Source: Paenibacillus sp. URB8-2
GTDB lineage: Bacteria > Bacillota > Bacilli > Paenibacillales > Paenibacillaceae
DNA: 64,000 nt
Reading direction: 5' to 3'
Assembly (NCBI RefSeq): GCF_013393385.1
Contig: NZ_AP023239.1
Span: 868,001-932,000, forward strand
This document shows positions 44,185-64,000 of the stretch, piece by piece (the stretch's first letter is position 1; each line of letters begins with the position of its first letter). The notes below the pieces were generated by a model. It was not told the origin of the DNA and searched no databases. It saw nothing but the letters and a program-made list of their open reading frames with translations. The position numbers and the translations under genes were made by a program.

Positions 44185-44592
44185 TTATGAAGCTGTCTCA
44201 CGGATGTTGACTATGCTGAAGCTCCGTTTTGATGAAGAACCTTTTCGGTTGTCGGCTCCTTTTTGCAAATTGATACCTGACATAAACGCAAGTTTAATCA
44301 TGTACAGGCCGTTCGGATGAAAGGTTAACACCACCAGAGGAAACGAAATCAGGAATGTTAGCAAATGAACCGGATAGATTCTTGCCAATCTGGCGACATA
44401 GAAAGCTCTAATCGTGTTGCCGCTATGCTCACCTAGCTTGTCCTGATAATTGTAGGTTAATATAAAGCCGGATAAAATGAAGAAAAAGGAGACGCCGGCT
44501 GAGCCAAGCTGATAACCGGAGAACAAATTCTGGTGAAACAGGAATACCATTAATGCGGCGATGAACCGAAATGTAGTGAGTGATCGTAACAT
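44185..44592 (-). pseudogene. Acyltransferase-3 family protein, truncated
   Basis: The first ~107 residues match the acyltransferase-3 opening: LTTFRFIAALMVFLFHQNL, GSAGVSFFFILSGFILTYNY, and FYVARLARIYPVHLLTF with the conserved Arg-x-x-Arg-x-x-P. The family runs to 350 or more residues; here it collapses into an unrelated tail (NRKGSSSKRSFSIVN...) and stops at 135. The promoter and ribosome-binding site (GGAGG) look intact. The preserved GTTCTTT box in front suggests that it was once part of the same regulon. Confidence 0.7.
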
Positions 44593-44611
44593 TGGAGTTC
44601 CTCCTCTTTTC

Positions 44612-44664
44612 GTTCTTTAAAAAGAACATAAATGTATCTTATAAAGAGAGAATGCTTTTTTCAA
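44612..44664 (-). promoter_or_regulatory. Promoter with SinR-type palindrome before truncated acyltransferase
   Basis: On the minus strand TTGAAA (44664-44659) and TAAGAT (44641-44636) are 17 bases apart. GTTCTTTAAAAAGAAC (44612-44627) lies just downstream of the -10, where a repressor would block transcription. Confidence 0.6.
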
Positions 44665-44810
44665 GCTTATTTATCATAGTTATGAGGTTTGTTGCCGGGG
44701 GCCTGAAAGCAGATAGGGTTATTTGTCGGTCGTATTGCTATTGGAAGATTAAGATGAATGGTGTCTGTGGTATAGTGGAAGCAGGAGTCACAGGACAAAG
44801 GGGGCTTACA

Positions 44811-46232: not shown

Positions 46233-46274
46233 AAAGCGGAACAAATTTGCTTGCGTAAAGGAGATAGAGAATCC

Positions 46275-46478
46275 ATGCACCAACCAGGTTTCTTTTTTTG
46301 GGGCGGGCTTGCGCCTCTCGTTTTTATCGGGTGGCTCGTATCCATTGGATTGGGGATCTATGCGTTTGTTCTGTTCGTTAAACTTGCCCGTAGAGGAATC
46401 GAAGCCTTGGATTTGTATATATACGCTAAAAACCGGGAAATACGCGATCATTATGAATCCGTGAATCGGAAGGATTGA
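46275..46478 (+). CDS. Small single-pass membrane protein
   Basis: 67 residues from ATG 46275 (GGAG about ten bases upstream). One membrane segment (FIGWLVSIGLGIYAFVLFVKL) and a charged tail YAKNREIRDHYESVNRKD. Follows the malic enzyme by 42 bases and precedes a terminator, so both are probably on one transcript. Function not recognised. Confidence 0.65.
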   Translation: MHQPGFFFWGGLAPLVFIGWLVSIGLGIYAFVLFVKLARRGIEALDLYIYAKNREIRDHYESVNRKD

Positions 46479-46514
46479 TGCCCGGAGCGCTATAAAGTGC
46501 TTTGGGGAAAAGAA

Positions 46515-46562
46515 AAAACAGTTAACCCCGTCAGACCAATGCCTGACGGGGTTAACTGTTTT
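46515..46562. terminator. Strong bidirectional terminator
   Basis: AAAACAGTTAACCCCGTCAG pairs perfectly with its complement around an eight-base loop, with A/T tracts on both sides. Shared by the plus-strand malic enzyme unit and the minus-strand acyl-CoA synthetase. Confidence 0.9.
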
Positions 46563-46588
46563 AGAATTGAAAAACCAATCAGCAGGAC

Positions 46589-48199: not shown

Positions 48200-48341
48200 A
48201 AGGCGTCTTCACTCATCAAAGTATATTTGTTCTCTCCTATTGTAGCATGAACTCTTAGTACCAGATGCTAAATTTGATGTCAATATAAAAAAATTCTTGG
48301 TGCAGCTATCCTAGATTCGGACTTTATAAATAACGAATGTT

Positions 48342-48374
48342 GTTCTTTATAAAGTAAATCAAAGGTGATAAATT
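48342..48374 (+). promoter_or_regulatory. SinR-type box and -10 element before the acyl-CoA ligase operon
   Basis: GTTCTTTATAAAGTAA (48342-48357) and TAAATT (48369-48374), 27 bases from start to start. The same geometry recurs at 51265 and 56699. A normal -35 hexamer is lacking. Confidence 0.6.
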
Positions 48375-48418
48375 AGATACAAGTCCGAATAATCCATTGT
48401 GCATTGGGGGCACGGATC

Positions 48419-50179: not shown

Positions 50180-51248
50180 ATACTACCCCGGGATCACGAT
50201 ATTCAAGCTCGCCGGCTCGCTGATAGTGCTGATCGCGCATGTAATGTTGTTCCGGTATTTCGGTGAGATGCCGAATGGGCAGATGAATTATATTTTTAAC
50301 GCCATGAAAGTCATTGTGCCCTGCTTTTATATGATTTCCGGGTTTTTGGCTTATCGGGGGTGGTCCGGGGCCGAAAATCCAGCCGCCTATGTACGCAAGT
50401 ACCTGACCCGGATTTTAGTGGTCTACGGTTTCTTTTGTCTCATCTTTGCCGGGGAGTTTGTCGTTCCGGCTTTGATCAGGGGAGGTTTAACGGCGTCCAA
50501 CCTTTTTTTGCAGGCCAAAATAATGGCGGCGATGTTCCTGCTGAACGGACCCTTTATCCAGCTGTGGTTTATTCCGCCGCTTATGTTCGGGATGCTGCTG
50601 GCTTACTTTCTATTCCGAAGAACATCTCTTCGGGCTGCGGCCGTCCTGACCTTGCTTGGATTTCTGCTCGCTCAAACGTTATTCGGTACGCTCCGTGCGA
50701 TTCTGGACGCTATAACGGGCGGCATCCCCTTTTTGGACACGGATTACGGCGGGTATTTGGAGCTCTTCGCCGAGCGTTATCTGGGCTACGGTCTTACGTT
50801 CGTAACGGCGGGAGCTTTCATCGCCAAATATGAAGAACGGTTTTTGCGGCTGGGTGCAAGGTTCTTTCTCGTTCCGGCTGCAGTGCTTACTCTTATTGAA
50901 ACGCTGCTTCTTATGCTTGGAGCCAAGTGGACCCCTGATTATTCTTTGGCCTTTTGCATGATTCCGAATACCGTCCTGTTCTTTTATGGAGTGCTTCGCA
51001 TCAAGAGCCGCTCTATCCAGGCCTATCACTCGACTATCAATCTATTCAGTATGGTGACCTTTTTCGGCCATATTCCTTTCATTCAGATCAACCTTTTGCT
51101 GTTGAAATGGGATGTCGCCAGATTGGAGATTACCCGGGGATGGATCGTGCTGCTGATTACGCTGCTGGAATGTCTGGCAGGAACGCTGATACTGGCATTA
51201 AGCAAGAGACAAGCGGCCTGGAGCCGTCAAAGAGACCCGTACTCTTAA
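50172..51248 (+). CDS. Acyltransferase-3 family membrane protein
   Basis: 358 residues with about ten membrane segments. The opening ITIFKLAGSLIVLIAHVMLFRYFG followed by YMISGFLAYRG, then VRKYLTRILVVYGFF, matches acyltransferase-3 enzymes of the polysaccharide O-acetylase type; the conserved His in LIAHV is present. Start ATG 50172 lies inside the ligase gene. Together with the ligase it forms a two-gene unit ahead of the lasso peptide cyclase gene. Extracytoplasmic O-acylation of exopolysaccharide is the standard role; acylation of another product is speculative. Confidence 0.8.
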   Translation: MRRYYPGITIFKLAGSLIVLIAHVMLFRYFGEMPNGQMNYIFNAMKVIVPCFYMISGFLAYRGWSGAENPAAYVRKYLTRILVVYGFFCLIFAGEFVVPALIRGGLTASNLFLQAKIMAAMFLLNGPFIQLWFIPPLMFGMLLAYFLFRRTSLRAAAVLTLLGFLLAQTLFGTLRAILDAITGGIPFLDTDYGGYLELFAERYLGYGLTFVTAGAFIAKYEERFLRLGARFFLVPAAVLTLIETLLLMLGAKWTPDYSLAFCMIPNTVLFFYGVLRIKSRSIQAYHSTINLFSMVTFFGHIPFIQINLLLLKWDVARLEITRGWIVLLITLLECLAGTLILALSKRQAAWSRQRDPYS

Positions 51249-51264
51249 TATTTTTGAAGAGTTT

Positions 51265-51297
51265 GTTCTTTATTAAGCACGGAAAAGATGGTAAATT
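51265..51297 (+). promoter_or_regulatory. SinR-type box and -10 element before the lasso cyclase gene
   Basis: GTTCTTTATTAAGCAC (51265-51280) and TAAATT (51292-51297), again 27 bases from start to start. Confidence 0.6.
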
Positions 51298-51381
51298 AAA
51301 AACAAATCTAAGCTGCTTGCAGCCTGCGCTGCCGGCATCATTTACATGCAGGAGCATTAAGATGAGATTTGGAGGGACAGG

Positions 51382-53349
51382 ATGGGTGCGATCAGCGGGA
51401 TTTACATGTTTGGAAGCGATACGAATGCCGCCCCGGCCGGCTCGTCCATTTTCGGGAAATTGAAAGCCTACTCCTTTAACCGGACAGGAGAATGGGTGGA
51501 TCAATCCGTGCATCTGGGCTGCGGAATTCTATACAACACGCCTGAATCGAAAATGGAAGAGCTGCCGCGCTGCAATGACAATGGCGCCTTGGTCATTACG
51601 GCGGATGCAATTATTGACAACCGGGCTGAGCTGCTGGAACAATTCAACCTGCAACCTGGTGACCCGGCAGTTGTGACCGACAGCGAACTGATTATCCGGG
51701 CATACGAAACTTGGGGACATGCCTGTCCCGGGCATCTTATCGGCGATTACGCATTTGCGATTTGGGATATCGGCAAGCAGGAGCTGTTTATCGCGCGTGA
51801 CGCCATGGGATCAAGGACCTTGTACTATACCTGTGAGGACGGTTATTTTTCCTTTTGCACAGTAGAGAAGCCATTATTGGGTCTGTTCGGCAAGCGGGCC
51901 GAGTTGGATGAGAAATGGATTACCGATTTTTTATCGATAGACGGAATTCAACATGAACTGGAATGCGAAGGAACTGTTTACCGGGGGATCAGCCAGCTGC
52001 CGCCCGCCCATTATGGAATAGTCAATGCTATGGGTTTGGTCAAAAAGCGGTATTGGGAGCCGTTAAGGGACATTAAGCCGATCGTTTTTGGCAGTGATGA
52101 AGAGTATGTTGAAGCCTTTAACCGGTGTTTCTCGGAAGCGGTATCGTGCCGGCTGAGAAGCCTGGGCGAGACGGGGATTTTTCTGAGCGGCGGGATGGAT
52201 TCCGGTTCGATTGCCTCTGTTGCTGCTCCCCAATTAGCCGATAAGGGGAAAAAGCTGTATGGATTCACATCCGTTCCGGTGCCCGGGTTCAGCGAGCAGC
52301 CGTCCGGAACGGCAATCTATAATGAATCCCGTGAAGTCGAGCTTATCGCACAGGCTTACCCTAACATTGATATCACTTACGGGAGCTTTGCTGAAAAAAA
52401 TTGCCTGACCGATGCCGATGAATTGCTTCGAATCTTTGAGCAGCCTTATAAAATTTTTCAAAACATGACATGGTATCATTCGTTCTTAAAGATGGCCGCC
52501 AAAAGAAATTGTACGGTGATGCTGAACGGCCAGACTGGGAACAGTACCATCTCGTATGGCAATTTCGGGGTTCAATTGGCGACGCTGTATAGAAAAGGGA
52601 GAATCGCCGCGGCGGCCAGGGAAATTTATGAATTCAGCAAATTGGCGAATGCGCCGGTGAGGAAAGTGCTGAAAAGCGCGATTCCCGTAGTCATGCCGTA
52701 CCGTTTGAAAGTTTGGAAGAACCGGAGGCAGCTTCGGGAGTTTGACCGTTTTGAGAATATGGTGGTGAAAAGGTCGCTGATCCAAAAATGGGATGTAATC
52801 AGCGGGCTCGACCGGATTGGAGCCAATACGCCGATCAGCCGTTTTCCGGATTATGAGGAGGATCGAAAGTCGAGAACCAGTCCTCTGCCGTTTGCGCACA
52901 TCGGAGCGGTGGAGACCAAATTATCGCTGGCTAATGGAATTACGATCCGTGATCCCTCCCGGGATAAACGCGTCTTCGAATTCTGCATGGCCATTCCATC
53001 CGAACAATTTGTGCGGAATGGTCAGGATAGATATTTGCTGCGGCGGGCCATGAAAGGGATACTTCCGGACCCGATCCGGCTGAATATCCGGACCAAAGGG
53101 CTTCAAAGCGCGGATTGGATCTATAGGCTGGCTCCGCAGTGGCCCGAGGTTCTCGACGAAGCCGAGAGGGTCCTGGAGCAAGGCGATCTAGAGCCATACG
53201 TGGACAAGGATAAGCTGAGGGAGAAGCTTGCCAAGGCCAGCCGGGACATAAACAAGAATGAGGAAAATCTAATCCGGTCTATAGTGATTACCGTCATTTT
53301 CTCCAGATTTATAGCAGCATTTAATCCGACACCCGAGGTGGTAAAATGA
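51382..53349 (+). CDS. Lasso peptide macrolactam synthetase (asparagine synthetase-like, C protein)
   Basis: 655 residues. The N-terminal half is a class II glutamine amidotransferase-like domain that lacks the catalytic Cys2 (MGAISGIYMFG), so it cannot hydrolyse glutamine. The C-terminal half is an asparagine synthase domain with the ATP pyrophosphatase loop FLSGGMDSGSIAS (near residue 269). This is the pattern of lasso-cyclising C proteins, which adenylate an Asp/Glu side chain and close the ring. RBS TTGGAGGG. It overlaps the kinase gene by four bases (ATGA), and the precursor lies further downstream. A nearby gene set of paeninodin type supports the call. Confidence 0.87.
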   Translation: MGAISGIYMFGSDTNAAPAGSSIFGKLKAYSFNRTGEWVDQSVHLGCGILYNTPESKMEELPRCNDNGALVITADAIIDNRAELLEQFNLQPGDPAVVTDSELIIRAYETWGHACPGHLIGDYAFAIWDIGKQELFIARDAMGSRTLYYTCEDGYFSFCTVEKPLLGLFGKRAELDEKWITDFLSIDGIQHELECEGTVYRGISQLPPAHYGIVNAMGLVKKRYWEPLRDIKPIVFGSDEEYVEAFNRCFSEAVSCRLRSLGETGIFLSGGMDSGSIASVAAPQLADKGKKLYGFTSVPVPGFSEQPSGTAIYNESREVELIAQAYPNIDITYGSFAEKNCLTDADELLRIFEQPYKIFQNMTWYHSFLKMAAKRNCTVMLNGQTGNSTISYGNFGVQLATLYRKGRIAAAAREIYEFSKLANAPVRKVLKSAIPVVMPYRLKVWKNRRQLREFDRFENMVVKRSLIQKWDVISGLDRIGANTPISRFPDYEEDRKSRTSPLPFAHIGAVETKLSLANGITIRDPSRDKRVFEFCMAIPSEQFVRNGQDRYLLRRAMKGILPDPIRLNIRTKGLQSADWIYRLAPQWPEVLDEAERVLEQGDLEPYVDKDKLREKLAKASRDINKNEENLIRSIVITVIFSRFIAAFNPTPEVVK

Positions 53350-54263
53350 GCGGTCCTGATTTCCGGTTTCGTTATAAAGCGTTTGGATTGAATATCGCTT
53401 CCAATTTCCTGATCGAAGGCCTGCTGCCGGCGGACGGCGAACCTGAAGTCTATATCAAGGAGGGAAAGGTGCCCGTCGACTTGCCCGGTCCTCCGAATTC
53501 TTATGGATACACTAGAGTCGGCACAGACGGATTTGCTTTCCGCGTCAAGGACATCGGCACATTTCTCGTTACGGACGGCACACAGATCATCGCAGAACGA
53601 AGTGAAGGCTGCGAACCGGGAGCCCATGTTCTATTCATCCTTGGAACCTGTATAGGAGTGCTCTTGTTCCAGCGCGGCCTGCTTCCGGTCCACGGCGGCG
53701 CATTGGCGCTGGAAGGGAAGCATATCATCGTAACCGGGCATTCCGGTGCGGGCAAATCTACGCTGACAGCGGCATTGACCAAGCGCGGCTGCGCTTTTTT
53801 AGCCGATGATATCGCGGCGCTCCAAGAGGACGAAAGGGGAGAGCCGTGGATTGTGCCCTCTTTCCCAAGACAAAAGCTGTGGCGGGATACGGCCGAGCAG
53901 ATTTATGGCAGTGTTGATTCATTGGACCGGATTCCGGGTATACGGGATAAGTATCATGTTTCGATGGACGGCGGATTTATTGAGGTTCCCCAAAGGCTGG
54001 ACGCCCTCTTTGAATTGTCCACGCATCCGGGTTCCGAGGTGATCGTCTCCGAGGTGAAAGGTCCGGAAAAGCTGATGGTTATACTACGGAATATCTATCG
54101 CTCCGAGTTCATCGAGCTTATGGGGAAACAGGGTGAGCATTTTATGCGATGTTCCGCGCTTGCCGCAGCGATTCGTGTTTTTCATATCGAACGACCAGAG
54201 AATGGTTTTACAGTGGATGAACAAATCAAGGGCATAATTCATAAATTAAACGGAATTTTATAG
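53346..54263 (+). CDS. HPr kinase-like lasso precursor kinase (PadeK/ThcoK type)
   Basis: 305 residues. The N-terminal ~110 residues are a beta-rich region; then HGGALALEGKHIIVTGHSGAGKSTLTAAL with the Walker A GHSGAGKST, FLADDIAAL with the acidic pair, and a C-terminal domain with HPrK/P-like traits. Paeninodin-type clusters contain kinases of this family that phosphorylate the side chain of the C-terminal Ser of the precursor. Here the precursor ends in Ser, as expected for such a substrate. Translationally coupled to the cyclase gene. A three-codon frame with GGAGG follows its stop. Confidence 0.85.
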   Translation: MSGPDFRFRYKAFGLNIASNFLIEGLLPADGEPEVYIKEGKVPVDLPGPPNSYGYTRVGTDGFAFRVKDIGTFLVTDGTQIIAERSEGCEPGAHVLFILGTCIGVLLFQRGLLPVHGGALALEGKHIIVTGHSGAGKSTLTAALTKRGCAFLADDIAALQEDERGEPWIVPSFPRQKLWRDTAEQIYGSVDSLDRIPGIRDKYHVSMDGGFIEVPQRLDALFELSTHPGSEVIVSEVKGPEKLMVILRNIYRSEFIELMGKQGEHFMRCSALAAAIRVFHIERPENGFTVDEQIKGIIHKLNGIL

Positions 54264-54377
54264 GGTGATGGAGGATTTTTATGGCATTTTAATGATATTA
54301 TGACAATAGTTATGCCAAGAATGTTCTCAATAACGACCGAATGATCTTGATTTTTTGAAATATCTATTGTATTGTTA

Positions 54378-54460
54378 TATCAAATATTGCCAGCGGCATC
54401 TTGGTTAAACGGGGAATAAGCGGGGCAACGGCGATATTTAAATATCAGGAGGTGGAGTAT
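54378..54460 (+). promoter_or_regulatory. Leader of the lasso precursor with possible promoter and RNA stem
   Basis: TTGAAA (54355) with TATCAA (54378), 17 bases apart, is a weak promoter candidate. AAATATTGCC (54382-54391) pairs with GGCGATATTT (54430-54439), one wobble, enclosing a GC-rich 38-base segment with AGCGGGG. The ribosome-binding site AGGAGGTGG follows. I assign no riboswitch class. Confidence 0.35.
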
Positions 54461-54595
54461 ATGATTAAAAAAGTATGGGAAAAGCCGGAAGTGAAGGAAC
54501 TGAAAGTGAGCGGCACAGAGTTTGGTACGAAGATTACACCTAAGGTTGATGCCACCTACACTGACGGCACGCATATCTTCTACTCTTTCAGCTAA
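54461..54595 (+). CDS. Lasso peptide precursor, paeninodin-like
   Basis: 44 residues, with an excellent ribosome-binding site (CAGGAGGTGG). Leader of 21 residues with WEKPEVKELKVSGTEF, matching the Y/W-x-x-P-x-L leader pattern read by B1 proteins. The predicted core runs from Gly22 to Ser44, 23 residues, the same length as paeninodin. Asp30 would be core position 9, so a Gly1-Asp9 ring is predicted; the tail is rich in Tyr, Phe and Thr and ends YSFS with the Ser that a PadeK-type kinase could modify. The conserved leader Thr lies at -3 instead of the usual -2, which leaves some doubt about the cleavage point. A perfect terminator follows. Confidence 0.75.
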   Translation: MIKKVWEKPEVKELKVSGTEFGTKITPKVDATYTDGTHIFYSFS

Positions 54596-54610
54596 TTCAT
54601 TTAAAACGGA

Positions 54611-54650
54611 AGAGACCTCAAACGGGTTCAAGGTTTGAGGTCTCTTTTAA
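54611..54650 (+). terminator. Terminator after the lasso precursor
   Basis: AGAGACCTCAAAC pairs perfectly with GTTTGAGGTCTCT around a nine-base loop, followed by TTTTA. A second perfect hairpin (54665-54699, AGAGCTTGTTACT arms) lies just downstream. Confidence 0.88.
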
Positions 54651-54707
54651 TGCGGTTTGATATGAAGAGCTTGTTACTTGCTTTGAGTAACAAGCTCTTG
54701 TTGTTCA

Positions 54708-54840
54708 AATATAAGACTGTATAAGCGGAGCGCTTAACATTTTTACTTATATTTCTACGAGAAACGGTGCCTAAAGGCGATACTCGTATCGCCACTTCGG
54801 AAGCTAAAGCTTCTGAAAAGACGGCGATGCCGTTTCTTCT
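54708..54840 (+). repeat. Structured repeat, copy 1
   Basis: Begins AATATAAGACTGTATAAGC, returns with CTTATATT, and continues TACGAGAAACGG; a GAAACGG...CCGTTTC stem with inner hairpins and TTTCTTCT ends it. A second copy lies at 57128. The last 12 codons and stop of the ABC exporter gene (minus strand) fall within it. Confidence 0.6.
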
Positions 54841-56510
54841 TGGTATAACACGCCACCAGACAGGCGGTAGATATGGTCGCAGACATCGAATACAGACAAG
54901 CGGTGGGTGATGGCAATGCATGTTCTTGGCGGCTGGGAGTTCCGGATATTTTGCAGGACCGCCCATTCCGTATCCATATCCAGGGCGGAGGTCGCCTCAT
55001 CGAGCAGCAGGATGGGCGCCGGCCTCAGCAGGGCCCGGGCGATGGCGATCCGCTGGGCCTGGCCCTCGGATAAGCCGGAGCCATGTTCGCCGATAACCGT
55101 ATGAATGCCTTCCGGAAGCTTCTCTATAAAGCCCCGGGCACAGGCTGTTTCAATGGCGGCATGTATGTCCTCTTCTGTAGCCGCAGGATTGCCGATCCGC
55201 AGATTGTCAGCGATCGTACCGGAGAATAACGTGTTGCCTTGAGGAACGTAGGAAAAATAAGACCGGGTATCAGCCGACAGGCTGACGGGTTCGCGGTCCT
55301 TGCCGATGATGCTGATGTTCCCGTTCTGCGGTTCGATCAATGCGAGCAGAAGCCGGAGCAGCGTTGTTTTGCCTTCCCCCGAAGTCCCGATAAGGGCGAC
55401 AAGCTCGCCGGGATGAATGCGGAGAGAAACATCGGTAAGAATCGGCTTGTTTGCTTCATAGCTGTATGAGACATGTTCCATGCGCAGTTCGGATAAGCTT
55501 TCCTTGACGGCCGGGGCGGTCTCTTTTTTAGCTTCCGGCTGCAATTTTTGAAATACGATCAATCGTTCCGCGGATGTGACCATGGCGATGAGGATCGGGA
55601 AAGTGCGGGCCAGACCTTCAAGCGGTCCCTGAATTTGTCCTACAAGCTGCAAAAAGGCGGTAAACATCCCGAAACTCGCGGCCCCGGTGGATATTCGGAA
55701 AGCGCCCCAGATAAAGGCCAGGAAAAATCCGAGCCGGTAACCGATTCCCATTGTAAGGTCTGCCGCCGCGTTAAAACGGGTGCGTTTAAGTATCCAGAAC
55801 AATCGGTCCTGCTGGGAAGATTGCACTTTCTCCAAGCTGTTTTTTTCATTCTCGAAGGTTTTAACAATGAGCAGATTCTGGACGCATTCATGCAGCAGGG
55901 AGCGATAGCGGCTTTCGGCGGCCTGGATTTGATGCTGCAACTTCTTCAGCTTGCTGCCGATATACCAGCTGATGAGTACGGACACGGGTCCAAGCACGAA
56001 TGCGAACAGGGCCAGCGTTTTGTCAAAGTACAGCAGCGTAAAAAAGGCGGCCGCGAATTGGACAATCAATGCGACGATGTTCGGCAAGGTATTGATTAAT
56101 CCATCGGTGACGTTGGCCGAATCGCTTGTCAGGTGGGTCAACAGATCGCCGCTGTGGTATTTCCCGGCGGCGCTCCACTCCGTTCTATACAGCCGGTCCA
56201 TGAAGCTCCGCTGCAGATCATTGTTGACCGCTTCTCTCAGCTTAACGCTTCTCAAGGTCAGCAAGGAGGAAAGGCCCAACTGGAGAATCAGAATTAAGGC
56301 AAAGGCGATGGCGTATAATCCGCTAAGGCGCATGCTGCTCTGCACGGCATGATCGATTACCTGCTTGGAGACGATGGCGAGGGCCGCTCCGCTAAGAGAA
56401 ATGATGACATTGAGCAGAATGATCGCGGACAGCGCACCCCATTTTCTCTTCATGCACTGTGTCAGCCAGCGGTAAATATCGGTGTTAAAGAGATGCCTAA
56501 GTTTGTTCAT
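54804..56510 (-). CDS. ABC exporter with fused permease and ATPase (lasso D protein)
   Basis: 568 residues from ATG 56510 (GGGGAG upstream). Six membrane segments in an ABC type 1 exporter domain (about 20-310), then an ATPase with Walker A GTSGEGKTTLL, signature LSEGQAQRIAIARA, Walker B ILLLDEATSALD and switch THRLS. The McjD/PadeD-like fold and position fit export and immunity for the lasso peptide. It is transcribed toward the precursor gene, from the opposite strand; in known paeninodin clusters D is usually co-directional. Start codon near a 250-base promoter region shared with the small secreted protein. Confidence 0.87.
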   Translation of the reverse strand: MNKLRHLFNTDIYRWLTQCMKRKWGALSAIILLNVIISLSGAALAIVSKQVIDHAVQSSMRLSGLYAIAFALILILQLGLSSLLTLRSVKLREAVNNDLQRSFMDRLYRTEWSAAGKYHSGDLLTHLTSDSANVTDGLINTLPNIVALIVQFAAAFFTLLYFDKTLALFAFVLGPVSVLISWYIGSKLKKLQHQIQAAESRYRSLLHECVQNLLIVKTFENEKNSLEKVQSSQQDRLFWILKRTRFNAAADLTMGIGYRLGFFLAFIWGAFRISTGAASFGMFTAFLQLVGQIQGPLEGLARTFPILIAMVTSAERLIVFQKLQPEAKKETAPAVKESLSELRMEHVSYSYEANKPILTDVSLRIHPGELVALIGTSGEGKTTLLRLLLALIEPQNGNISIIGKDREPVSLSADTRSYFSYVPQGNTLFSGTIADNLRIGNPAATEEDIHAAIETACARGFIEKLPEGIHTVIGEHGSGLSEGQAQRIAIARALLRPAPILLLDEATSALDMDTEWAVLQNIRNSQPPRTCIAITHRLSVFDVCDHIYRLSGGVLYQEETASPSFQKL

Positions 56511-56698
56511 GCGTAATCTCCCCAATCTGCCGGATTGCTGGAAAAAAGTAACGGTTAAAGCAGGGACTAAAGTGCGGGTATGTTCGCTGAAAGAAACGAA
56601 CGGAAGTAAATACTTGGATATGCCTCTGGTCTTAAGGTGAAGTCTATCAAAGATAAATCAAAAATCAAGATGTATTTACAAATCCCCCATTCCATTAT

Positions 56699-56731
56699 AT
56701 TCTTTATAAAGAACTACCTTGTAGTTAATTT
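56699..56731 (+). promoter_or_regulatory. SinR-type box and -10 element before the small secreted protein
   Basis: ATTCTTTATAAAGAAC (56699-56714) and TAATTT (56726-56731), 27 bases from start to start. The remainder of 56511-56698 shows no gene. Confidence 0.6.
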
Positions 56732-56760
56732 AGACTATATGAAAGAGAGGACTCGGAAGT

Positions 56761-57087
56761 ATGGTAACGTGTATGAAGAAATACACACGGCTCACGCTGA
56801 TTGTGCTGCTTCTCAGTGCGGTTATGCTGCCGGCCTCTGCCTATGCATCCTCCAGCTCGGCAGAAGCGAAGTATTCCTCTTCTTATGCGACCTCCTTTTT
56901 ATCCTCATTGACCAACGTGTTTGCCTCCTGGTTTGACAAGGAAGCAACAACGTCCCACAGCGGCAACAACACATATGGTAATTGGTTAAGTTGGCTAAAA
57001 GGCAGGGACTGCGATGATGAAAGGGATTGGTGGGAGGACAATCAGCATGATTCCTACAAGCTGTGGAAAAAGTATTACTCTTACTGA
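56761..57087 (+). CDS. Small secreted Trp/Tyr/Asp-rich protein
   Basis: 108 residues from ATG 56761 (GAGAGG upstream; ATG 56773 possible). Signal peptide KKYTRLTLIVLLLSAVMLPASAYA, then a Ser-rich stretch (SSSSAEAKYSSSYATSFLSS) and an unusual acidic-aromatic end WLKGRDCDDERDWWEDNQHD...WKKYYSY. No family recognised. Its box and position suggest co-expression with the lasso and polysaccharide genes; a surface adhesin, matrix protein or signalling role are open possibilities. Confidence 0.65.
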   Translation: MVTCMKKYTRLTLIVLLLSAVMLPASAYASSSSAEAKYSSSYATSFLSSLTNVFASWFDKEATTSHSGNNTYGNWLSWLKGRDCDDERDWWEDNQHDSYKLWKKYYSY

Positions 57088-57127: not shown

Positions 57128-57226
57128 AATATAAGACTTTATAAGCTGCGCGTTTATCGTTTGGTCTTATATTTTTACGAGAAACGGATGCCGTCCTCTT
57201 CCAGAGGACGGCATCCGTTTCTTCTT
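57128..57226 (+). repeat. Structured repeat, copy 2
   Basis: AATATAAGACTTTATAAGC, later GGTCTTATATTTTTACGAG and AAACGG, then a perfect GAAACGGATGCCGTCC stem with TTTCTTCT. Shares its first 60-base unit with copy 1; the outer AATATAAG/CTTATATT pairing is kept in both while the inner bases differ. Confidence 0.65.
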
Positions 57227-57228
57227 AC

Positions 57229-60200
57229 TTATTGCTGGATATTTCCGCTCTGAACATCATTGCTCTTAAGAGCCAGCACGGCCTTATTAAGGATATTGTT
57301 CTTAACTGTATAGGGCGGCGCATTTGTACCCGCATAGATCGTGGAAATGCCTACAGCGGCGATATTGGAAGTGACGGTATTGCTGATAATCGATACGTTG
57401 AATACATCGGCAGGATCATTTCGTTTCCAGTAGTCGTTGATTTTGATCAGCTCTACCGAAGTCCGCGCAAGCTTCATGGCCGTCACCGTATTATTTTCGA
57501 GAACGACTCGATTAGCCGTTTCAACCGTAATGGCCGAAGCATCACCCTTGACGTTGAACTTGGAGTTCGTGATCTTCAGATCCAGATTGGCATGGCTTGC
57601 GATAAGGGCATTGTTGCCGGTAGCGTTGGAGGCAAAAGTGCAATTATCGAAGCTGTATACGCCACTAGCGACAATCGTTGACCCGAACCGGCTGCCGTCC
57701 GCCGCTTCAAATATAGAGTTCGTGTACATGCCCTGCGGTAAAGTCATGCCTTGGGCAGAGTTGAATCCGAGCACCTTGATATTATTGAATGCCGATCCCG
57801 GTTTGGGATTGCCGTTGAAGCTGGCGAACGCCGCCTCTCCTGTTACTGTAACATTGGAAACCTCAATGGGTTCTCCGCTTACTGCAAAGCCCGCATCCAC
57901 TTTCTTTGTAATCTGAATATTCACATTGGAGACTTTGACACCTTTCGGATTCTTGGCGCTGACGGACAGTTTGCCGTTGGTGATCTCCATACCGTCGATG
58001 ACAATATTGGGCCCTTGGAAGAAGGTGCCGGAATCATTCATCCGGTTACCCAGGAAGGATGCATCATGATAGGCGATAATCCGGGTAGCATCAAAGTGAT
58101 TGTTTACGACCTTTGCATTTTTGAACGTCTCGGATACCGCAAGTCCGATGGTGCCCTTCGAAGCGAGATGGTTGCCCTCAACGGTCGCGTCATGCCCGTC
58201 ATACAGGATGACGTCATAAACCGCATTATTGTAGAATTCATTGTTTTTAATAAAAATGTTGGTGTTCAGGTTTCCGTTCTCGCCGTATCCGCCTTCCACA
58301 TCAATGCCCGACTGCGGCGCGATTCCTTTGATGTCGTGCAGGATGTTGTTCATGATCAGCGCATTGTCGGCGCCACCCACCGTAATACCCTGGCGGCGGT
58401 TATAAGCGAACTCGGAATTTTTAACGACCGGATTCTGGGTGACGGTCCGGTTCCAAGCCTCCAGATAGGCGCCGGTTGACGAGGCTTTAATAAATACCAG
58501 ATGGAAGTAAGCCGCGCCGTCCGGTATCGTCATGATTTCTCTCGCCAAAGCCGGTTGACTCTTGATGAAGGACCCGTCCGTACGATAGAAATACACGGTA
58601 AAGTTGCTGGGCAGATTGGCTATATTGGAAATTTCAAAGGTCCGCTCCGTCTTGAAGATGGCGTTGTTAAAATAAATGCCGTCTTTTGTCCGAACCTTTG
58701 TGCTGTCGCCGATCGGCTGGCCGCTTGCTCCGATTCCGCCGGAGACGAAGCTGGCGGCGTACAGATCCTTAAACATGGTGCCAAAGCCGCCAAGCACCAG
58801 CCCGTCGCCGGTGAAATACATCGCTTTGACGCCATCTATCGTTGTATTCTTCGCGCCTTCAACGAAAATGCCGTATCCGCCTTCGTGGGTGCCCGTATTA
58901 TAAGGGTCCCGCTGGGAATAGTCATGGGTCTGCTTGTCGCCAATATACGTTCCGCCGCGAAGCGTTACATTGTTGGCGCCGTACCCGACATACATGACAT
59001 CGTATCGTTCTTTGCCGTTGGTTTCCTTCTGAAGGACGGCATCCATCGGCAGATCGAACAGCATATCGCCGACCATGGCGATCCGGCTGTTCTTGTCGAT
59101 GAGATAGGTTCCAGGCGGAAGCGTTGTTGCCGTGATGCCTTTCTGGCGGGCCCAGATCAAGGCATTGTTAATGCCCTTGACGGTCTCCACCGGGTGTGTG
59201 CCGTCGTTATAGATGCCCCACCGCGCCAGCTCAATCAGATAGTGCGTCGGCGATGCCGACACGGGAGCGCTCAGGGGCGAGCGGTTTCCGCTGGTGTCTA
59301 CGGCTTCCAACTGAACGGTGTACGCCACGCCGAAATCCAGCCCTTTAGCCTCGTAAAAGTTCTGCAAGAGAGGCTCGGCATTCACTTTTTGTCCGCCCAC
59401 ATAAATATTGTAGCCGGCCAAATCGCTTTCCGTACCGGCCGCCCAGGAGATGGAAACTTTGCTTGGACCGCCCGCGGCCGATACCTGCGCGGGGGTAGCC
59501 GGCGGTACAATGTCCTTCGTCCGGATGGAAAGGCCGATGCCGTTTGAAGTCTTCACAACCGTATAAACTGTTTTGAGTGTGAAAGAATATTCTGTTTCCC
59601 CGGAGAGTCCTTCCGCTTTGTATCTGCCGTCTGATGAAGAACCGATCAGAACGCCGCCCAGGTAAATATCCACCCGGTTAAAATTGGGGGAGGCGGGATT
59701 GTTCCAGGTCAGCGTTACGGATGTGCCGTCGTCCACAGCAGTCAACCCGCTGATTTCCTCGGGAGCCGAGTCATCCGCGGCTTGCGGTGTAGCGGATATC
59801 GGGATTGAAGGCCCCGATTCAATCTGGGCGTCATTTACAGCGGTCACATACAGACTGTAGCTTTGGCCGTTCTTCAGTCCGTTCAGCATATAGGTGTCTC
59901 CGGTTACCGTAGCGGTATTGCTCTTAGTGCCGTCCCGATAGACATTGTAGCCAATAATGGAGCTCTCGCCGTTCTCCGTCCAATTTAGCAGTACGGCTCC
60001 GTCCGAAGCGGAAGCGGACAGTCCGGCCGGAGGAGACGGAAGACTGGCAGGCGCTGTCGTCACGCTTAACTCAGTGCCTGCGGACTCCATGCCGGTCATG
60101 TTTACGGTCTTCAATACATAGTGGTGGGTTGTGCCGGGAAGCAGACCGGTTTCCTGATAGAACGTATCGGTTGTCGCTGCCTTCAGGCTTCCTTCTTTAT

Positions 60201-61275
60201 AAATGTTAACGGCTTTAAAATCGGGATACGCCGGGTTGAACCAGGTAAATGACAAGCCTGTTTTACCGCTGAGCGACTTCAAGCCGGAAACTTCCTGCAG
60301 CACAGGCGCTTCGCTCGGAGCGGGAGTCGGCTCTGGAGCGGGCGTCATGCCGGGCGCCGGAGCCGGCTCAGGAGCCGGAGTGGGAGTAGGCTCGGGTGCC
60401 GGAGCCGCCGCAGCCGGATCGGCAGAGGCGGAAGGAAGCGGCGTTGGCAAAGGCGAAGGCGATGGAGCCGGAGCAACCGGAGGGGCCGCACCGCCCCCGC
60501 CACCACCGCCGCCGGCTCCGCCACCACCGCCGATGGCAGCCATCAAACCCGCGGCGGCCGGTTCGCTCGCGGGAACGCCTTCCGGCGAAGCGGATGGGCT
60601 GACTGGCGGCGGCGCCGATTCGTCGGGCGATCCGGCGGCGCCGATCCGCAGATCCTGGTAGAGCGTTCTGCCGAGCAGGGCGGCGAATTCGGAGCGAGTC
60701 ACCATTTTGGACGGCTGAAACTTGCCGTTCTCGTCTCCGGCCGCGATGCCGTTCGTTACCAGCCTGGAAATGGACGAAGCGGCCCAGTGGTTGTCGATGT
60801 CGGAAACATGGGCTGCGGCATTCGCGCCCTGGCTGTCCAGATTGAAGGCGCGCGCGATGAGCACGGCGCTGTCGGCCCGGGTAAGCGTCTCGCCGGGGCG
60901 GAACGTGCCGTCCGCATAACCGGTAATCAGATTGGACTTCTTCGCGGCTTTAATATAGGGATAAGCCCAATATTCCGACGACACATCGGAAATAGCCTGC
61001 GGATCATCCCCATTGGAGTCAACGCCGATGCCGCTTGCCTGCACGATGATTTTTACGGCTTCCGCCCGGGTAATCGGATTGTCCGGACGGAAGGTTCCGT
61101 CGTCATAACCGCCGATAAGCTGCTGCTCTTTTAAGCGAGAGATTTCTTGATGTGCCCAGTGTTTGGGCGAAATGTCCGAGAACAGAATCGGACTGGCTGC
61201 CTCCGCCTGGGGGAATGTCGGCGTCAGCAAGGCGACGATAATAAAAACAATGAGGGTAAATGCTGTGTTTTTCAT
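57229..61275 (-). CDS. S-layer-anchored FN3/beta-helix protein (pectate-lyase-like)
   Basis: 1348 residues. Signal peptide 1-26, three SLH repeats (about 30-205: FSDISPKHWAHQEISRLKEQ, ISDVSSEYWAYPYIKAAKKS, VSDIDNHWAASSISRLVTN), a Gly- and Pro-rich linker (about 212-325), four FN3 domains (about 330-685) and a right-handed parallel beta-helix (about 690-1348). The helix starts LARWGIYNDGTHPVETVKGINNAL, as in Pectate_lyase_3-type proteins, and contains a beta-sandwich insertion. Probably cleaves or binds a polysaccharide at the cell surface; no catalytic residues can be assigned safely. It is a paralogue of the divergent gene at 61531, and its 3' end abuts repeat copy 2. Confidence 0.85.
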   Translation of the reverse strand: MKNTAFTLIVFIIVALLTPTFPQAEAASPILFSDISPKHWAHQEISRLKEQQLIGGYDDGTFRPDNPITRAEAVKIIVQASGIGVDSNGDDPQAISDVSSEYWAYPYIKAAKKSNLITGYADGTFRPGETLTRADSAVLIARAFNLDSQGANAAAHVSDIDNHWAASSISRLVTNGIAAGDENGKFQPSKMVTRSEFAALLGRTLYQDLRIGAAGSPDESAPPPVSPSASPEGVPASEPAAAGLMAAIGGGGGAGGGGGGGGAAPPVAPAPSPSPLPTPLPSASADPAAAAPAPEPTPTPAPEPAPAPGMTPAPEPTPAPSEAPVLQEVSGLKSLSGKTGLSFTWFNPAYPDFKAVNIYKEGSLKAATTDTFYQETGLLPGTTHHYVLKTVNMTGMESAGTELSVTTAPASLPSPPAGLSASASDGAVLLNWTENGESSIIGYNVYRDGTKSNTATVTGDTYMLNGLKNGQSYSLYVTAVNDAQIESGPSIPISATPQAADDSAPEEISGLTAVDDGTSVTLTWNNPASPNFNRVDIYLGGVLIGSSSDGRYKAEGLSGETEYSFTLKTVYTVVKTSNGIGLSIRTKDIVPPATPAQVSAAGGPSKVSISWAAGTESDLAGYNIYVGGQKVNAEPLLQNFYEAKGLDFGVAYTVQLEAVDTSGNRSPLSAPVSASPTHYLIELARWGIYNDGTHPVETVKGINNALIWARQKGITATTLPPGTYLIDKNSRIAMVGDMLFDLPMDAVLQKETNGKERYDVMYVGYGANNVTLRGGTYIGDKQTHDYSQRDPYNTGTHEGGYGIFVEGAKNTTIDGVKAMYFTGDGLVLGGFGTMFKDLYAASFVSGGIGASGQPIGDSTKVRTKDGIYFNNAIFKTERTFEISNIANLPSNFTVYFYRTDGSFIKSQPALAREIMTIPDGAAYFHLVFIKASSTGAYLEAWNRTVTQNPVVKNSEFAYNRRQGITVGGADNALIMNNILHDIKGIAPQSGIDVEGGYGENGNLNTNIFIKNNEFYNNAVYDVILYDGHDATVEGNHLASKGTIGLAVSETFKNAKVVNNHFDATRIIAYHDASFLGNRMNDSGTFFQGPNIVIDGMEITNGKLSVSAKNPKGVKVSNVNIQITKKVDAGFAVSGEPIEVSNVTVTGEAAFASFNGNPKPGSAFNNIKVLGFNSAQGMTLPQGMYTNSIFEAADGSRFGSTIVASGVYSFDNCTFASNATGNNALIASHANLDLKITNSKFNVKGDASAITVETANRVVLENNTVTAMKLARTSVELIKINDYWKRNDPADVFNVSIISNTVTSNIAAVGISTIYAGTNAPPYTVKNNILNKAVLALKSNDVQSGNIQQ

Positions 61276-61397: not shown

Positions 61398-61486
61398 AAA
61401 GAACTGTTTTTTTGGAGTGGGACTTAAGCCTTTCCATTCGAAAACAAACGTGATAGTCTAAAATAGAGTGGTTCGTTTTAAAGAAC
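61398..61486. promoter_or_regulatory. SinR-type sites in the divergent beta-helix promoter region
   Basis: AAAGAAC half-site at 61398-61404 (GTTCTTT on the minus strand) and GTTCGTTTTAAAGAAC at 61471-61486. TAAAAT at 61459 could be a -10 for the plus gene, which would place the second site at its transcription start. Confidence 0.45.
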
Positions 61487-61530
61487 GTATGATATGCGGA
61501 TGGAATCTGGAACGGGAGGACGAGATCGAA

Positions 61531-63669
61531 ATGAGCAAACCATTATTGAGGTTGATTCTGCCTTTGATCGTTTTGCTGCTTCTTTCGGGGGTGCCGCCTC
61601 AGATCTATGGTCAGGATTCACCCGAGCCGCAGCAGCCGGTGACGATTGAGCTGTCCAAGTGGAAGATTTACAATGACGGAACCCATCCGTCGGAAACGAC
61701 CAAAGGCATCAACGCGGCTTTAGCCATGCTGCATAACAACGGGGTTAAAGTTGTGACACTGCCGTCCGGCACGTACCTGATTGATAAGGACAGCCGTATT
61801 AACATGGTCAGCGATATGACGTTTATTTTGCCGGATGACGCGGTGCTGCAAAAGGAAGCAAACGGAAAAGAGCGGTACGAAACGATGTTCCTTGGCTACG
61901 GGGTCGATAATGTCACCTTAAAGGGCGGAACATACAGCGGTGATAAGGACCGGCATGATTTCTCCAAAAAGGACAGCCCGCACAGCCCGGGTACGCATGA
62001 GAACGGATACGGCATATTGATGGAGGGAGCGTCAGATGTTGTGGTCGACGGCGTCAAGACCGTTAATTTTACCGGAGACGGAATGGCGATCGGCGGCGTT
62101 GGCACCTTGATCAAAGACTTGTATGAGGGAGGGTTTGTTCCCGGAGCGCTCGATGCCAAAGGATATGCCGTGAATAATAAGAACAAAATCCGCACCCAAT
62201 CGCCGATCCCGCTTACCGCTCCCGTTCTTCAAACGGAAAAGATTTTTGAAATTTCAAACGTCAAAAAGCTGCCGTATACGTTTGAAGTCTATTTCTACCA
62301 AAGCGGCGGAAAGTTCATCAAGAAGATATCGGCCAAGGCCCGTGACCAAATGGCCATTCCGCCCGGAGCCGCCTATTGTCATCTTGTGCTGAATCAGGCG
62401 TCCTCCAAGGGCGGCTATCTGGAAGTGTGGAACCGTGTCGTAAGCCGGAACATTACGGTCCGGAACTCGGAGTCCGCATTCAACCGCCGCCAGGGCATTA
62501 CGGTCGGCGGAGCCGACAATGTTCTGATTACCGGAAATCGGCTTCACGATATCAAGGGAACGGCTCCTCAGTCCGGTATTGATGTGGAGGGCGGATACGG
62601 GGAGAACGGAAATCTGAACACCAACATTACGATTAAAAATAATCAGTTCTACAACAACGCCGCATATGACGCCATTCTTTACGACGGCCGGAACGCTTGG
62701 GTGGACGGCAATCATTTTGCATCCAAGGGAACCATTGGACTTGCGATATCCCCGCCATTCAGCAACGCGTGGGTATCGGATAACCATTTTGACGGTACGC
62801 GCATCTATGCCTACCATGATGTCTATTTGCAAAATAATGCCATGAACGATTCCGCAACCTTTTTCGAAGGGCCGAATATTGTTATTGATGGAATGAAGAT
62901 CACGAACGGCATACTCGCCTTAAGCGCAAAAAAGGCCTATGGAATCAAGGTGTCCAATATCGATATCACAATTACGCAAAAAGTGGATGCGGGTTTAAGC
63001 GTCAACAATCAACCGGTGCGCCTGTCCAATGTCACGATAACCGGGGAGCCCTCCTTGCGGAGTCTTTCAGGAAACGCGGTTTCCGGAAGTGTGTTTGATC
63101 ATCTGAAGGTTATAGGCTACAACTCGGCTTATGGGTTGTCCCTGCCCCCTGGGACTTACAAAGACAGCCGGTTCGATGCGTCCGAGGGAGGAAAGTTCGG
63201 CACACTTTCAGCCGTTCAGGCCGGAGAGTATGTGTTTGATGGCTGTACTTTTAGAGGGAATACCGACGGTGCGGGCATGCTGTACGCCGAGAACAAGCAA
63301 TTAAAGCTGACGGTGAAGAACAGCGCTTTCGAGGTGCCCGGCAATATGCAGGCTATCAGTATTCAGGCGGCTCAAAGCGTCCTTGTGGAGAATAATGTTG
63401 TGAACGCGGAGCATCTGACTTCCAATAGTACGGAGATTGTTAAAATCAACGATTATTGGAAGCGGAACGAACCGTACGATGTGGGGAGCGCCGTGATCCG
63501 GAAGAACAAGATTACTAGCAATCTGCAGGCCGTAGGAATCTCGACGGAGTATGCCGGAATACAGGCGCCTCCTTATACAATAGAAGGGAACACTCTTATT
63601 AATGCGCAGCTCTCATTGAAAGCCAATGATAGAGTCAATAATAATATATTGCAGCAGCTTAAATATTGA
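61531..63669 (+). CDS. Secreted right-handed beta-helix protein (pectate-lyase-like)
   Basis: 712 residues from ATG 61531 (GGGAGG 11 bases upstream; the frame is open to 61468). Signal peptide SKPLLRLILPLIVLLLLSGVPP, then directly the same beta-helix as the 57229 protein: LSKWKIYNDGTHPSETTKGINAAL, YLIDKDSRINMVSDMTFILPDDAVLQKE and QGITVGGADNVL are near identical to that paralogue. SLH and FN3 parts are absent, so it should be released. It lies immediately ahead of the exopolysaccharide operon, which suggests that the two proteins process or remodel that polymer, one free and one cell-bound. No catalytic assignment. Confidence 0.82.
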   Translation: MSKPLLRLILPLIVLLLLSGVPPQIYGQDSPEPQQPVTIELSKWKIYNDGTHPSETTKGINAALAMLHNNGVKVVTLPSGTYLIDKDSRINMVSDMTFILPDDAVLQKEANGKERYETMFLGYGVDNVTLKGGTYSGDKDRHDFSKKDSPHSPGTHENGYGILMEGASDVVVDGVKTVNFTGDGMAIGGVGTLIKDLYEGGFVPGALDAKGYAVNNKNKIRTQSPIPLTAPVLQTEKIFEISNVKKLPYTFEVYFYQSGGKFIKKISAKARDQMAIPPGAAYCHLVLNQASSKGGYLEVWNRVVSRNITVRNSESAFNRRQGITVGGADNVLITGNRLHDIKGTAPQSGIDVEGGYGENGNLNTNITIKNNQFYNNAAYDAILYDGRNAWVDGNHFASKGTIGLAISPPFSNAWVSDNHFDGTRIYAYHDVYLQNNAMNDSATFFEGPNIVIDGMKITNGILALSAKKAYGIKVSNIDITITQKVDAGLSVNNQPVRLSNVTITGEPSLRSLSGNAVSGSVFDHLKVIGYNSAYGLSLPPGTYKDSRFDASEGGKFGTLSAVQAGEYVFDGCTFRGNTDGAGMLYAENKQLKLTVKNSAFEVPGNMQAISIQAAQSVLVENNVVNAEHLTSNSTEIVKINDYWKRNEPYDVGSAVIRKNKITSNLQAVGISTEYAGIQAPPYTIEGNTLINAQLSLKANDRVNNNILQQLKY

Positions 63670-63795: not shown

Positions 63796-63851
63796 TTGAC
63801 ATGTTCTATATAAAGAACTAAAATTAACGCACAACGTTCTTTATTAAGTTA
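63796..63851 (+). promoter_or_regulatory. Promoter of the exopolysaccharide operon with two SinR-type boxes
   Basis: TTGACA (63796-63801) and TAAAAT (63819-63824) are 17 bases apart, nearly consensus. GTTCTATATAAAGAAC (63803-63818) fills the spacer, and GTTCTTTATTAAGTTA (63836-63851) covers the start region. This is a repressor layout, as in the SinR-controlled eps operon of B. subtilis. Confidence 0.75.
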
Positions 63852-63872
63852 CTCTTTAAAGTGGGTGAAAAC

Positions 63873-64000
63873 ATGGAAGATGAGAACGCGGCATATGAAA
63901 AAGAATCTCCAGCGAGAGCCCCGGTCAAGGAAATCAATCTGAAAGAATGGGCTTTAGTCATCAAAAGGAGAATATGGATTATTCTCCTGCCGACCCTCCT
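63873..64000 (+). CDS. Wzz/YveK-type chain-length regulator, first gene of a polysaccharide operon (3' end outside window)
   Basis: Only 42 codons are visible, from ATG 63873 (AAAGTGGGTG upstream). After a charged N-terminus the segment EINLKEWALVIKRRIWIILLPTL is the start of the first membrane segment of Wzz/EpsA-type polysaccharide co-polymerases. B. subtilis EpsA (YveK) is the first gene of its SinR-repressed matrix operon, which matches the promoter found here. Identity as EpsA orthologue is inferred. Confidence 0.7.
   Translation, partial: MEDENAAYEKESPARAPVKEINLKEWALVIKRRIWIILLPTL

Follow-up and report, generated by a model that had tools for sequence, protein, structure and literature searches.

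A window of 64,000 nucleotides from Paenibacillus sp. URB8-2 (positions 868001-932000 of the single-contig genome NZ_AP023239.1, 5,583,866 bases) carries lasso peptide genes for a cyclase (C), a precursor kinase (K), a precursor (A) and an exporter (D), and none for the leader-recognition protein B1 or the leader peptidase B2. The results of this study indicate that these genes are probably one half of a functional lasso pathway which is physically split, phylogenetically hybrid and co-controlled by a SinR-type protein. The first-pass annotation, made from the letters of the window only, had reported the four genes as apparently intact and B1 and B2 as absent between 48 and 64 kb, and had proposed supply in trans, use of another protease, or loss. 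As a whole that interpretation was partly supported. Not visible to it were the apparently different lineage of B1 and B2, the exopolysaccharide (EPS) gene cluster between the two halves, and a SinR-like gene with shared operator-like sites. Homology-based roles, regulation and evolutionary order were all read from sequence alone. No report of the hybrid pathway or of the SinR link was found in the open-licence literature searched.

The two halves of the probable lasso pathway

The four genes in the window form intact open frames:

51382..53349, plus strand: lasso cyclase C, apparently of a rare lineage designated C' (NF033535, PF00733, C tree, identities)
53346..54263, plus strand: HprK-like precursor kinase K (PF07475 and TIGR04352 below cut-off; K tree)
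54461..54595, plus strand: precursor A, 44 aa (open frame, ribosome-binding-site-like sequence, homologues in related genomes)
54804..56510, minus strand: ATP-binding cassette (ABC) exporter D (PF00664 and PF00005; identities)

C matches the lasso cyclase model NF033535 with E 2.9e-106 (357 bits, below the cut-off of 525) and PF00733 with E 7e-31, and its translation contains the SGGMDS motif expected of a macrolactam cyclase related to asparagine synthetase. K overlaps C by 4 nt and matches HprK-related models weakly (PF07475, E 8e-7; TIGR04352, E 1e-8; both below cut-off). The nearest NCBIfam model for D is MsbA, below cut-off, and an alternative TTG start is possible upstream at 56525. No Pfam or NCBIfam family matched A, which consists of a leader with the motif WEKPEV, followed by TEFG...PKVD and a C-terminal YSFS. 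Homologues of A occur in ten other genomes of the clade described below and in two further genomes of the family, P. methanolicus (G310) and G350. Of the named relatives found, P. rhizophilus 7197 came nearest, with C 97% identical (near-identical records were possibly left out).

Six-frame family searches of the whole genome (E<=0.001) detected a single place for PF13471 (B2) and a single place for PF05402 (B1, PqqD-like), both outside the window. The absence of B1 and B2 noted for 48-64 kb is thus borne out for the whole window, and a copy hidden there in another frame is ruled out. The pair lies with a SinR-like gene as follows (contig positions):

958639-958941, minus strand: B1, RiPP recognition element (RRE) protein (NF033536, 128.4 bits, cut-off 80)
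958184-958642, minus strand: B2, Transglut_core3 (NF033537, 97.8 bits, cut-off 33)
957838-958167, minus strand: SinR-like gene (PF01381, PF08671)

B1 and B2 overlap by 4 nt and the SinR-like gene follows after 16 nt. The pair lies 26.2 kb past the window end, and B2, on the opposite strand, is 33.7 kb from D; 33 kb separate D from the sinR-B2-B1 trio. Supply in trans was therefore correct in outline, the sole B1-B2 pair being elsewhere on the chromosome, in a different operon and on the other strand. The possibility that B1 and B2 stood just outside the view in the same operon held for their position and failed for the operon.

The layout was compared in a genus sample of 100 genomes (C called at E<=1e-30, B2 at E<=0.001). 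C was present in 72 genomes, and no other C was found at that threshold in URB8-2. At 45 of the 75 C loci, B2 was located 1.5-1.8 kb downstream on the same strand, and at 18 it was 12-22 kb upstream on the other strand (the divergent-split group). Seven loci, this genome included, had B2 37-54 kb downstream on the other strand, two (G090 and G051) had it 3.7-3.8 kb downstream on the other strand, and at three, G099 and G022 among them, B2 was not on the same contig. The seven together with G090, G051, G099 and G022 formed one branch of 11 species, including this one, in the C tree (support 86). A homologous EPS cluster lies between the halves in the seven, and its two ends are visible on the broken contigs of G099 and G022. 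Comparison with these related strains showed the halves adjacent in G090 and G051: both lack the EPS block, and C-K-A, then D, SinR, B2 and B1 stand side by side, so that B1 and B2 share a cluster with A and C there and not in URB8-2. A sinR copy of at least 74% identity was found beside B2 in 11/11 genus-sample genomes with the C' cyclase.

In the divergent-split group (eight of the 18 regions fetched, six printed) the EPS operon runs from a Wzz-like gene to N-B1-B2-D and is divergent from C and K. N-B1-B2-D is contiguous in five of the six printed regions, and a frame on the other strand intervenes in G096. No EPS cluster was recognised at six compact loci (26-40 kb fetched; panel BLAST and reading).

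The SinR-like regulator and operator-like palindromes

The protein encoded after B2 aligns with B. subtilis SinR (PDB 1b0n) over 107 residues with 130 bits, and has the helix-turn-helix domain PF01381 and the SinI-type dimerisation domain PF08671. It has Ser at position 33, where SlrR has Lys according to the accessible text of PMC3163267; the nearest NCBIfam model was SlrR, below threshold (88 vs cut-off 250). The published SinR half-site, as given in the accessible literature, is GTTCTYT, with the inverted repeat bound best, and from homology we infer that the SinR-like protein binds the palindromes found here.

A scan with the pattern GTTCTTTATAAAGAAC gave seven sites at <=3 mismatches in the window vs 0.24 expected (0/100 shuffles). 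In the whole genome there were 11 sites at <=2 mismatches, with two for the reversed-pattern control. Seven of the 11, including all four at <=1 mismatch, fell within contig 912612-959021 (46 kb, 0.8% of the genome; binomial 9e-13). They are listed below, in window positions except for the last; being palindromes, they are given no strand.

44612..44627: 1 mismatch, at the outer 5' end of the locus, early in a malic-enzyme-like frame; an acyltransferase-like frame on the minus strand is 20 bp away (both frames named by eye)
48342..48357: 2 mismatches, between divergent AMP-ligase genes
51265..51280: 2 mismatches, 101 bp before C
56699..56714: 1 mismatch, divergent region of D and a small open reading frame (ORF), overlapping a promoter-like -10
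61471..61486: 2 mismatches, between two beta-helix genes
63803..63818: 1 mismatch, before the Wzz-like first EPS gene
contig 959006-959021: 1 mismatch, before B1

The sites near the acyltransferase-like frame and between the AMP-ligase genes (44185-48404 region) may belong to the same regulon, the one at 44612 being uncertain. A promoter scan of 51200-56800 returned six promoter-like sites vs 6.4 expected, which is a chance number and no evidence.

The sites are also found in related species. In G045, G049, G054 and G019, sites at <=2 mismatches occur at all five positions (C, D/small ORF, beta-helix pair, Wzz and B1); G025 is without the beta-helix site, G018 without the D/small-ORF site, and the loci of G099 and G022 are incomplete. 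In G090 and G051 the sites before C and B1 are retained, and a further one precedes A (3 mismatches in G051). The locus holds 6/8 of the genome copies at <=2 mismatches in G054 and 3/7 in G090.

Across the genus sample, a box at <=2 mismatches was counted within 400 bp upstream of C at 42/55 C loci (50/55 at <=3) of genomes with a SinR homologue (E<1e-29) and at 1/20 C loci of genomes without one (Fisher 1.9e-8, uncorrected for ancestry), and mononucleotide-shuffled controls gave 1/3750.

Several points weigh against this regulatory interpretation. The bounds 912612-959021 are simply the outermost sites, and the interval from AMP ligase 1 to the B1 promoter contains 6/11. The scan followed a reading of upstream regions in which three of the palindromes (those of B1, the small ORF and C) had already been seen by eye. 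The contrast between genomes with and without SinR ignores ancestry, and 18 of the 20 SinR-less loci belong to the divergent-split group, the other two being the second C of G034, a divergent-split genome, and G093. G093 has a perfect box before C and no SinR homologue at E<=1e-8, for which SinR loss, a gap or another regulator are candidate reasons, and 13/55 loci in SinR-bearing genomes are without a box at <=2 mismatches. Moreover, with <=2 mismatches allowed, a 14-base core matched the genome 115 times vs 90 for the reversed control, and among the matches listed the degenerate 16-mer exceeded its control in 12/16 genomes, not in G051, G013, G096 and G074; the looser operator patterns are thus mostly chance.

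The palindromes could therefore also be sites of another regulator, or general promoter features, and say nothing on SinR. This explanation, which would concern only the regulatory half of our interpretation, draws on the fact that the binding of the box by SinR is deduced from a sequence match, and on the box of G093. On the other hand, the published SinR half-site occurs in the palindrome as an inverted pair, and over the stretch aGVAKSYLSSIER the encoded protein is almost the same as SinR. In addition, no site at <=2 mismatches was found in 8/8 fetched divergent-split regions, whose genomes are without a close SinR homologue. The SinR homologue of G008 (L133 6756-10739) lies beside two TasA-like frames and a SipW-like frame (by eye), with two SinR-box-like sites upstream; nothing was recognised by eye as tasA near the second sinR paralogue of G000. 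Considering both sides, we regard control by something other than SinR as unlikely.

Functional constraint and removal of the leader

If the leader of A were removed by another protease, or not removed at all, B1 and B2 would serve a different precursor. There are precedents: pseudomycoidin, according to the title of the paper, forms without leader and leader peptidase, and a SipW-like peptidase cuts LPP leaders in the accessible text of Popov 2026 (PMC13381572). However, C is the only cyclase of the genome at E<=1e-30 and the RRE/B2 pair is single, B1-B2 accompany the C' gene set in 11/11 genus-sample genomes, and A keeps the RRE-recognition motif. This motif, [Y/W]xxPx[L/V], occurs in A as WEKPEV, with W in 13/13 C' precursors. 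From these searches for C, B1 and B2, such an independence of A from B1 and B2 appears very unlikely to us.

Another explanation would be that C-K-A-D is a decaying remnant, with B1 and B2 kept for something else or remnants themselves. The halves are indeed 34 kb apart on opposite strands, and it also counts against a functional pathway that C and K score under the curated family cut-offs and that A is without any family match. However, full-length open frames were present in the fetched regions of all 11 clade species, and six species pairs gave dN/dS (NG86) values of 0-0.23 for the genes C, K, D, B1, B2 and sinR. These values, together with the presence of B2 in all 72 genus-sample genomes with C (74/100 overall), also lend no support to the loss of B1 and B2 considered in the first-pass annotation. 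The operator-like sites before C and B1 were kept even without EPS, as mentioned above, and both ends of the precursor and its candidate ring Asp are conserved: W..P, Thr, Asp at Thr+11 and the YSFS end, with the C-terminal Ser, were found in 13/13 precursors (11 species, G310 and G350). The Cys and AHAWLR positions of B2, which we take to be catalytic, are conserved in the 42 B2 rows printed. Decay of the locus is accordingly given hardly any probability here.

The Asp at Thr+11 could correspond to a Gly1-Asp9 ring, with Thr at -3, or to a ten-residue Phe/Tyr1-Asp10 ring, with Thr at -2. In the accessible text of PMC8498205 lasso rings have 7-9 residues and a ten-residue ring is named as an in vitro analogue; that of PMC10368454 shows Ile as a penultimate leader residue other than Thr. 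The 15/15 genus paeninodin-type precursors listed have, unlike A, the Asp at Thr+10. Thr+11 as a peculiarity of C' was nevertheless refuted by L117, L121 and L127, precursors beside paeninodin-type cyclases in which the candidate ring Asp is also at Thr+11 (by eye).

Probable hybrid origin

The two halves showed opposite affinities. The identities of P. methanolicus to the proteins of URB8-2 are 51.0% for C, 49.3% for K and 54.1% for D, and 26.0% for B1 and 35.5% for B2, whereas the means for G097, G098 and G075 are 34.5, 27.4 and 24.3%, and 64.6 and 59.6%, respectively. For C, comparison with 17 paeninodin-type cyclases of the genus gave identities of 32-36%; for D, comparison with paeninodin-type D gave 22-29%. 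In the C tree (44 rows) the clade joins P. methanolicus with support 100, and it also groups with P. methanolicus in the K tree (100). When the clade was forced together with nine Paenibacillus paeninodin-type rows, the log-likelihood fell by 286 units for the C tree (approximately unbiased [AU] test, p 6e-6) and by 125 units for the K tree (AU p 9e-6). In the joint B1+B2 tree (44 rows), however, the clade groups with those nine rows (99/98), and does so again (97/92) in a tree of 42 rows with G350 added and three long rows removed. In the 44-row tree, a grouping of the clade with G097, G098 and G075 by themselves fell short of the best topology (p 0.053). C and K thus fall outside the paeninodin clade and B1 and B2 within it. 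This suggests that C and K, and by identity A and D, belong to the rare C' lasso lineage, and B1 and B2 to the common paeninodin-type lineage.

The C' cyclase was found in 13/394 family genomes (E<=1e-135), i.e., the 11 of the clade, G310 and G350. In the latter two, A'-B1'-GtaB-like-D' and B2'-C'-K' both lie in one stretch of about 7 kb, with EPS genes adjoining. At the compact loci G097, G098 and G075, the last gene of the lasso operon is a sinR 76% identical to that of URB8-2, and this gene faces a related EPS cluster at its GalE-Wzx end; this EPS end is the same as here (GalE 75%, Wzx 78-79%).

It could be argued that no swap took place, that B1 and B2 descended with C', that the conflict between trees is an artefact of short, fast genes, and that P. 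methanolicus and G350 replaced their copies. Forcing B1+B2 of the clade together with the other C' carriers was rejected with AU p of only 0.012 and 0.026, and that this rejection is moderate, owing to the shortness of B1 and B2, speaks against our interpretation; P. methanolicus is also a long row in the 44-row B tree. This alternative has nonetheless very little chance of being right, as B1 and B2 are inside the Paenibacillus paeninodin-type set with either treatment of P. methanolicus, C and K are kept out of it, and the linked sinR and the EPS end are shared with G097, G098 and G075.

The insertion of an EPS cluster into one lasso cluster was rejected as the origin of the split. The EPS cluster is present in G025, which branches deepest within the clade in the C tree; in G097, G098 and G075 the EPS end adjoins sinR; and the trees disagree with each other. 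A better fit is an EPS operon with a lasso cluster on either side, the EPS having been lost in G090 and G051; the polarity follows from parsimony only. A Tyr-to-Trp switch of the leader after the swap is not claimed: the nine nearest paeninodin-type precursors have Y and this one W, but the tree also allows W to be older. Four Bacillaceae loci (L120, L121, L125 and L127; 17-22 kb shown) carry two lasso cyclases, two precursors and one K-B1-B2 set, and such two cyclases with a single B1-B2 pair are a plausible intermediate state.

Proposed pathway and comparison with known systems

In the functional split pathway that we propose, A, K, C and D would be of the C' lineage, with the original B1' and B2' lost, and B1 and B2 would derive from a former paeninodin-type cluster beside GalE, at that end of the EPS operon; its own C, A, K and D would be gone, and only B1-B2 and the sinR gene kept. 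K would phosphorylate the C-terminal Ser of A, B1 would bind the WxxPxV leader in trans, B2 would cut the leader, C would close the ring and D would export the product; the NTP_transf_5 proteins N1 and N2 may add sugar. The SinR-like protein probably represses both lasso halves, the surface proteins and the EPS operon through the common palindrome, and the lasso peptide and the matrix polysaccharide would therefore be made together.

A fuller version, put forward tentatively, would be a natural chimera in which two EPS-flanking lasso pathways have fused, the RRE and leader peptidase of one serving the precursor, kinase, cyclase and exporter of the other, with the SinR operator also driving EPS. 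The product would then be a phosphorylated, perhaps glycosylated, matrix lasso peptide, possibly with a ten-residue ring from Phe/Tyr, and the same SinR control of lasso cyclases would extend across much of Paenibacillus.

The pathway resembles those of paeninodin and pseudomycoidin in its HprK-like kinase, NTP_transf_5 protein, C-terminal Ser, discrete B1 and B2, ABC exporter, and the lineage of B1 and B2. It differs from them in the lineage of C and K (trees) and of D and A (identity), and in being split by an EPS cluster. The C' clusters of G310 and G350 have homologous A, C, K and D, the W leader, the NPDA ring end, the YSFS tail and adjoining EPS genes, but, unlike URB8-2, keep their own B1' and B2'; no SinR-box-like site at <=2 mismatches was found in the 55 kb (G310) and 38.6 kb (G350) fetched.

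An association of lasso and EPS genes in general is not new. Paeninodin-like and LPP clusters embedded in capsular polysaccharide loci of Bacilli, which the present locus resembles in this respect, are described in the accessible text of Popov 2026 (PMC13381572); there one paeninodin-like cluster is co-upregulated with an EPS gene, and a biofilm role is called tempting but only speculated on. Neither a SinR operator nor a hybrid between two lasso lineages is mentioned in that text. LPP has the motif YxxPxVLxHQxIxFETxxS and a second RRE, whereas a single PqqD-like place exists here and the motif is absent from A by eye. Within the accessible open-licence literature on lasso peptides, EPS and Paenibacillus, on split and hybrid clusters, on SinR together with lasso peptides, and on SinR in Paenibacillus EPS (including PMC7911366), neither a hybrid B1/B2 nor a control of lasso genes by SinR was found described. 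The B. subtilis SinR regulon (epsA-O, tapA-sipW-tasA) is similar in its SinR-type protein, its inverted GTTCTYT-like site and an EPS operon as likely target. It differs in that lasso genes are among the likely targets here and the regulator gene stands after lasso B1-B2; only the SinR gene of G008 was seen to have tasA-like neighbours as in B. subtilis.

Genome mining based on clusters would call this locus broken or see two fragments. If the hybrid pathway is real, the leader-recognition pair of a lasso pathway can be exchanged for one from a different lineage, a point relevant to the portability of RRE and B2 peptidases. Because a SinR-operator-like site stands before the cyclase in most SinR-bearing sample genomes, matrix biology is pointed to, and the role of paeninodin-type lasso peptides, left open in the accessible text of Popov 2026, becomes testable, with sinR deletion as a condition under which such peptides might be found.

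Genes between the two halves and minor observations

The block between D and the trio contains, in order, a small protein, two beta-helix proteins, Wzz-like, CpsD-like, EpsC-like and EpsG genes, sugar transferase and glycosyltransferase genes, the NTP_transf_5 gene N1, a flippase-like gene and GalE; N2, the other NTP_transf_5 gene, lies beyond HtpG. The EPS cluster proper is about 26 kb long and runs from the Wzz-like gene up to GalE, its last gene, at contig 957759. Wzz and most glycosyltransferases were named by reading; Pfam was run on some block genes only, and the flippase-like protein had no Pfam match. The part of the block in the window comprises:

56761..57087, plus strand: first gene of the block on the EPS side, for a small protein of 108 aa that looks exported by eye (homologues in related loci; neither Pfam nor NCBIfam gave a match)
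57229..61275, minus strand: surface protein with S-layer homology, fibronectin III and right-handed beta-helix domains (PF00395 x3, PF00041 x2, PF13229 x2)
61468..63669, plus strand: second beta-helix protein (PF13229)
63861..64000 (window edge), plus strand: start of the Wzz-like gene (by eye), first of the EPS cluster (reading)

Two imperfect repeat copies flank the D/small-ORF region (window 54705-54770 and 57130-57230). In G019 (L077-L078, about 237-252 kb of the contig), extra radical-SAM-like, protease-like and ABC genes (by eye) stand between D and the small ORF; the extra block is flanked by two 114-aa frames with like beginnings and is probably an insertion. Within the EPS cluster, a 26/77-base tandem repeat array precedes an EpsM-like gene (L003 11565-11794), and a 15-base array (L003 12659-12719) gives N1 a repeated MFSFA start.

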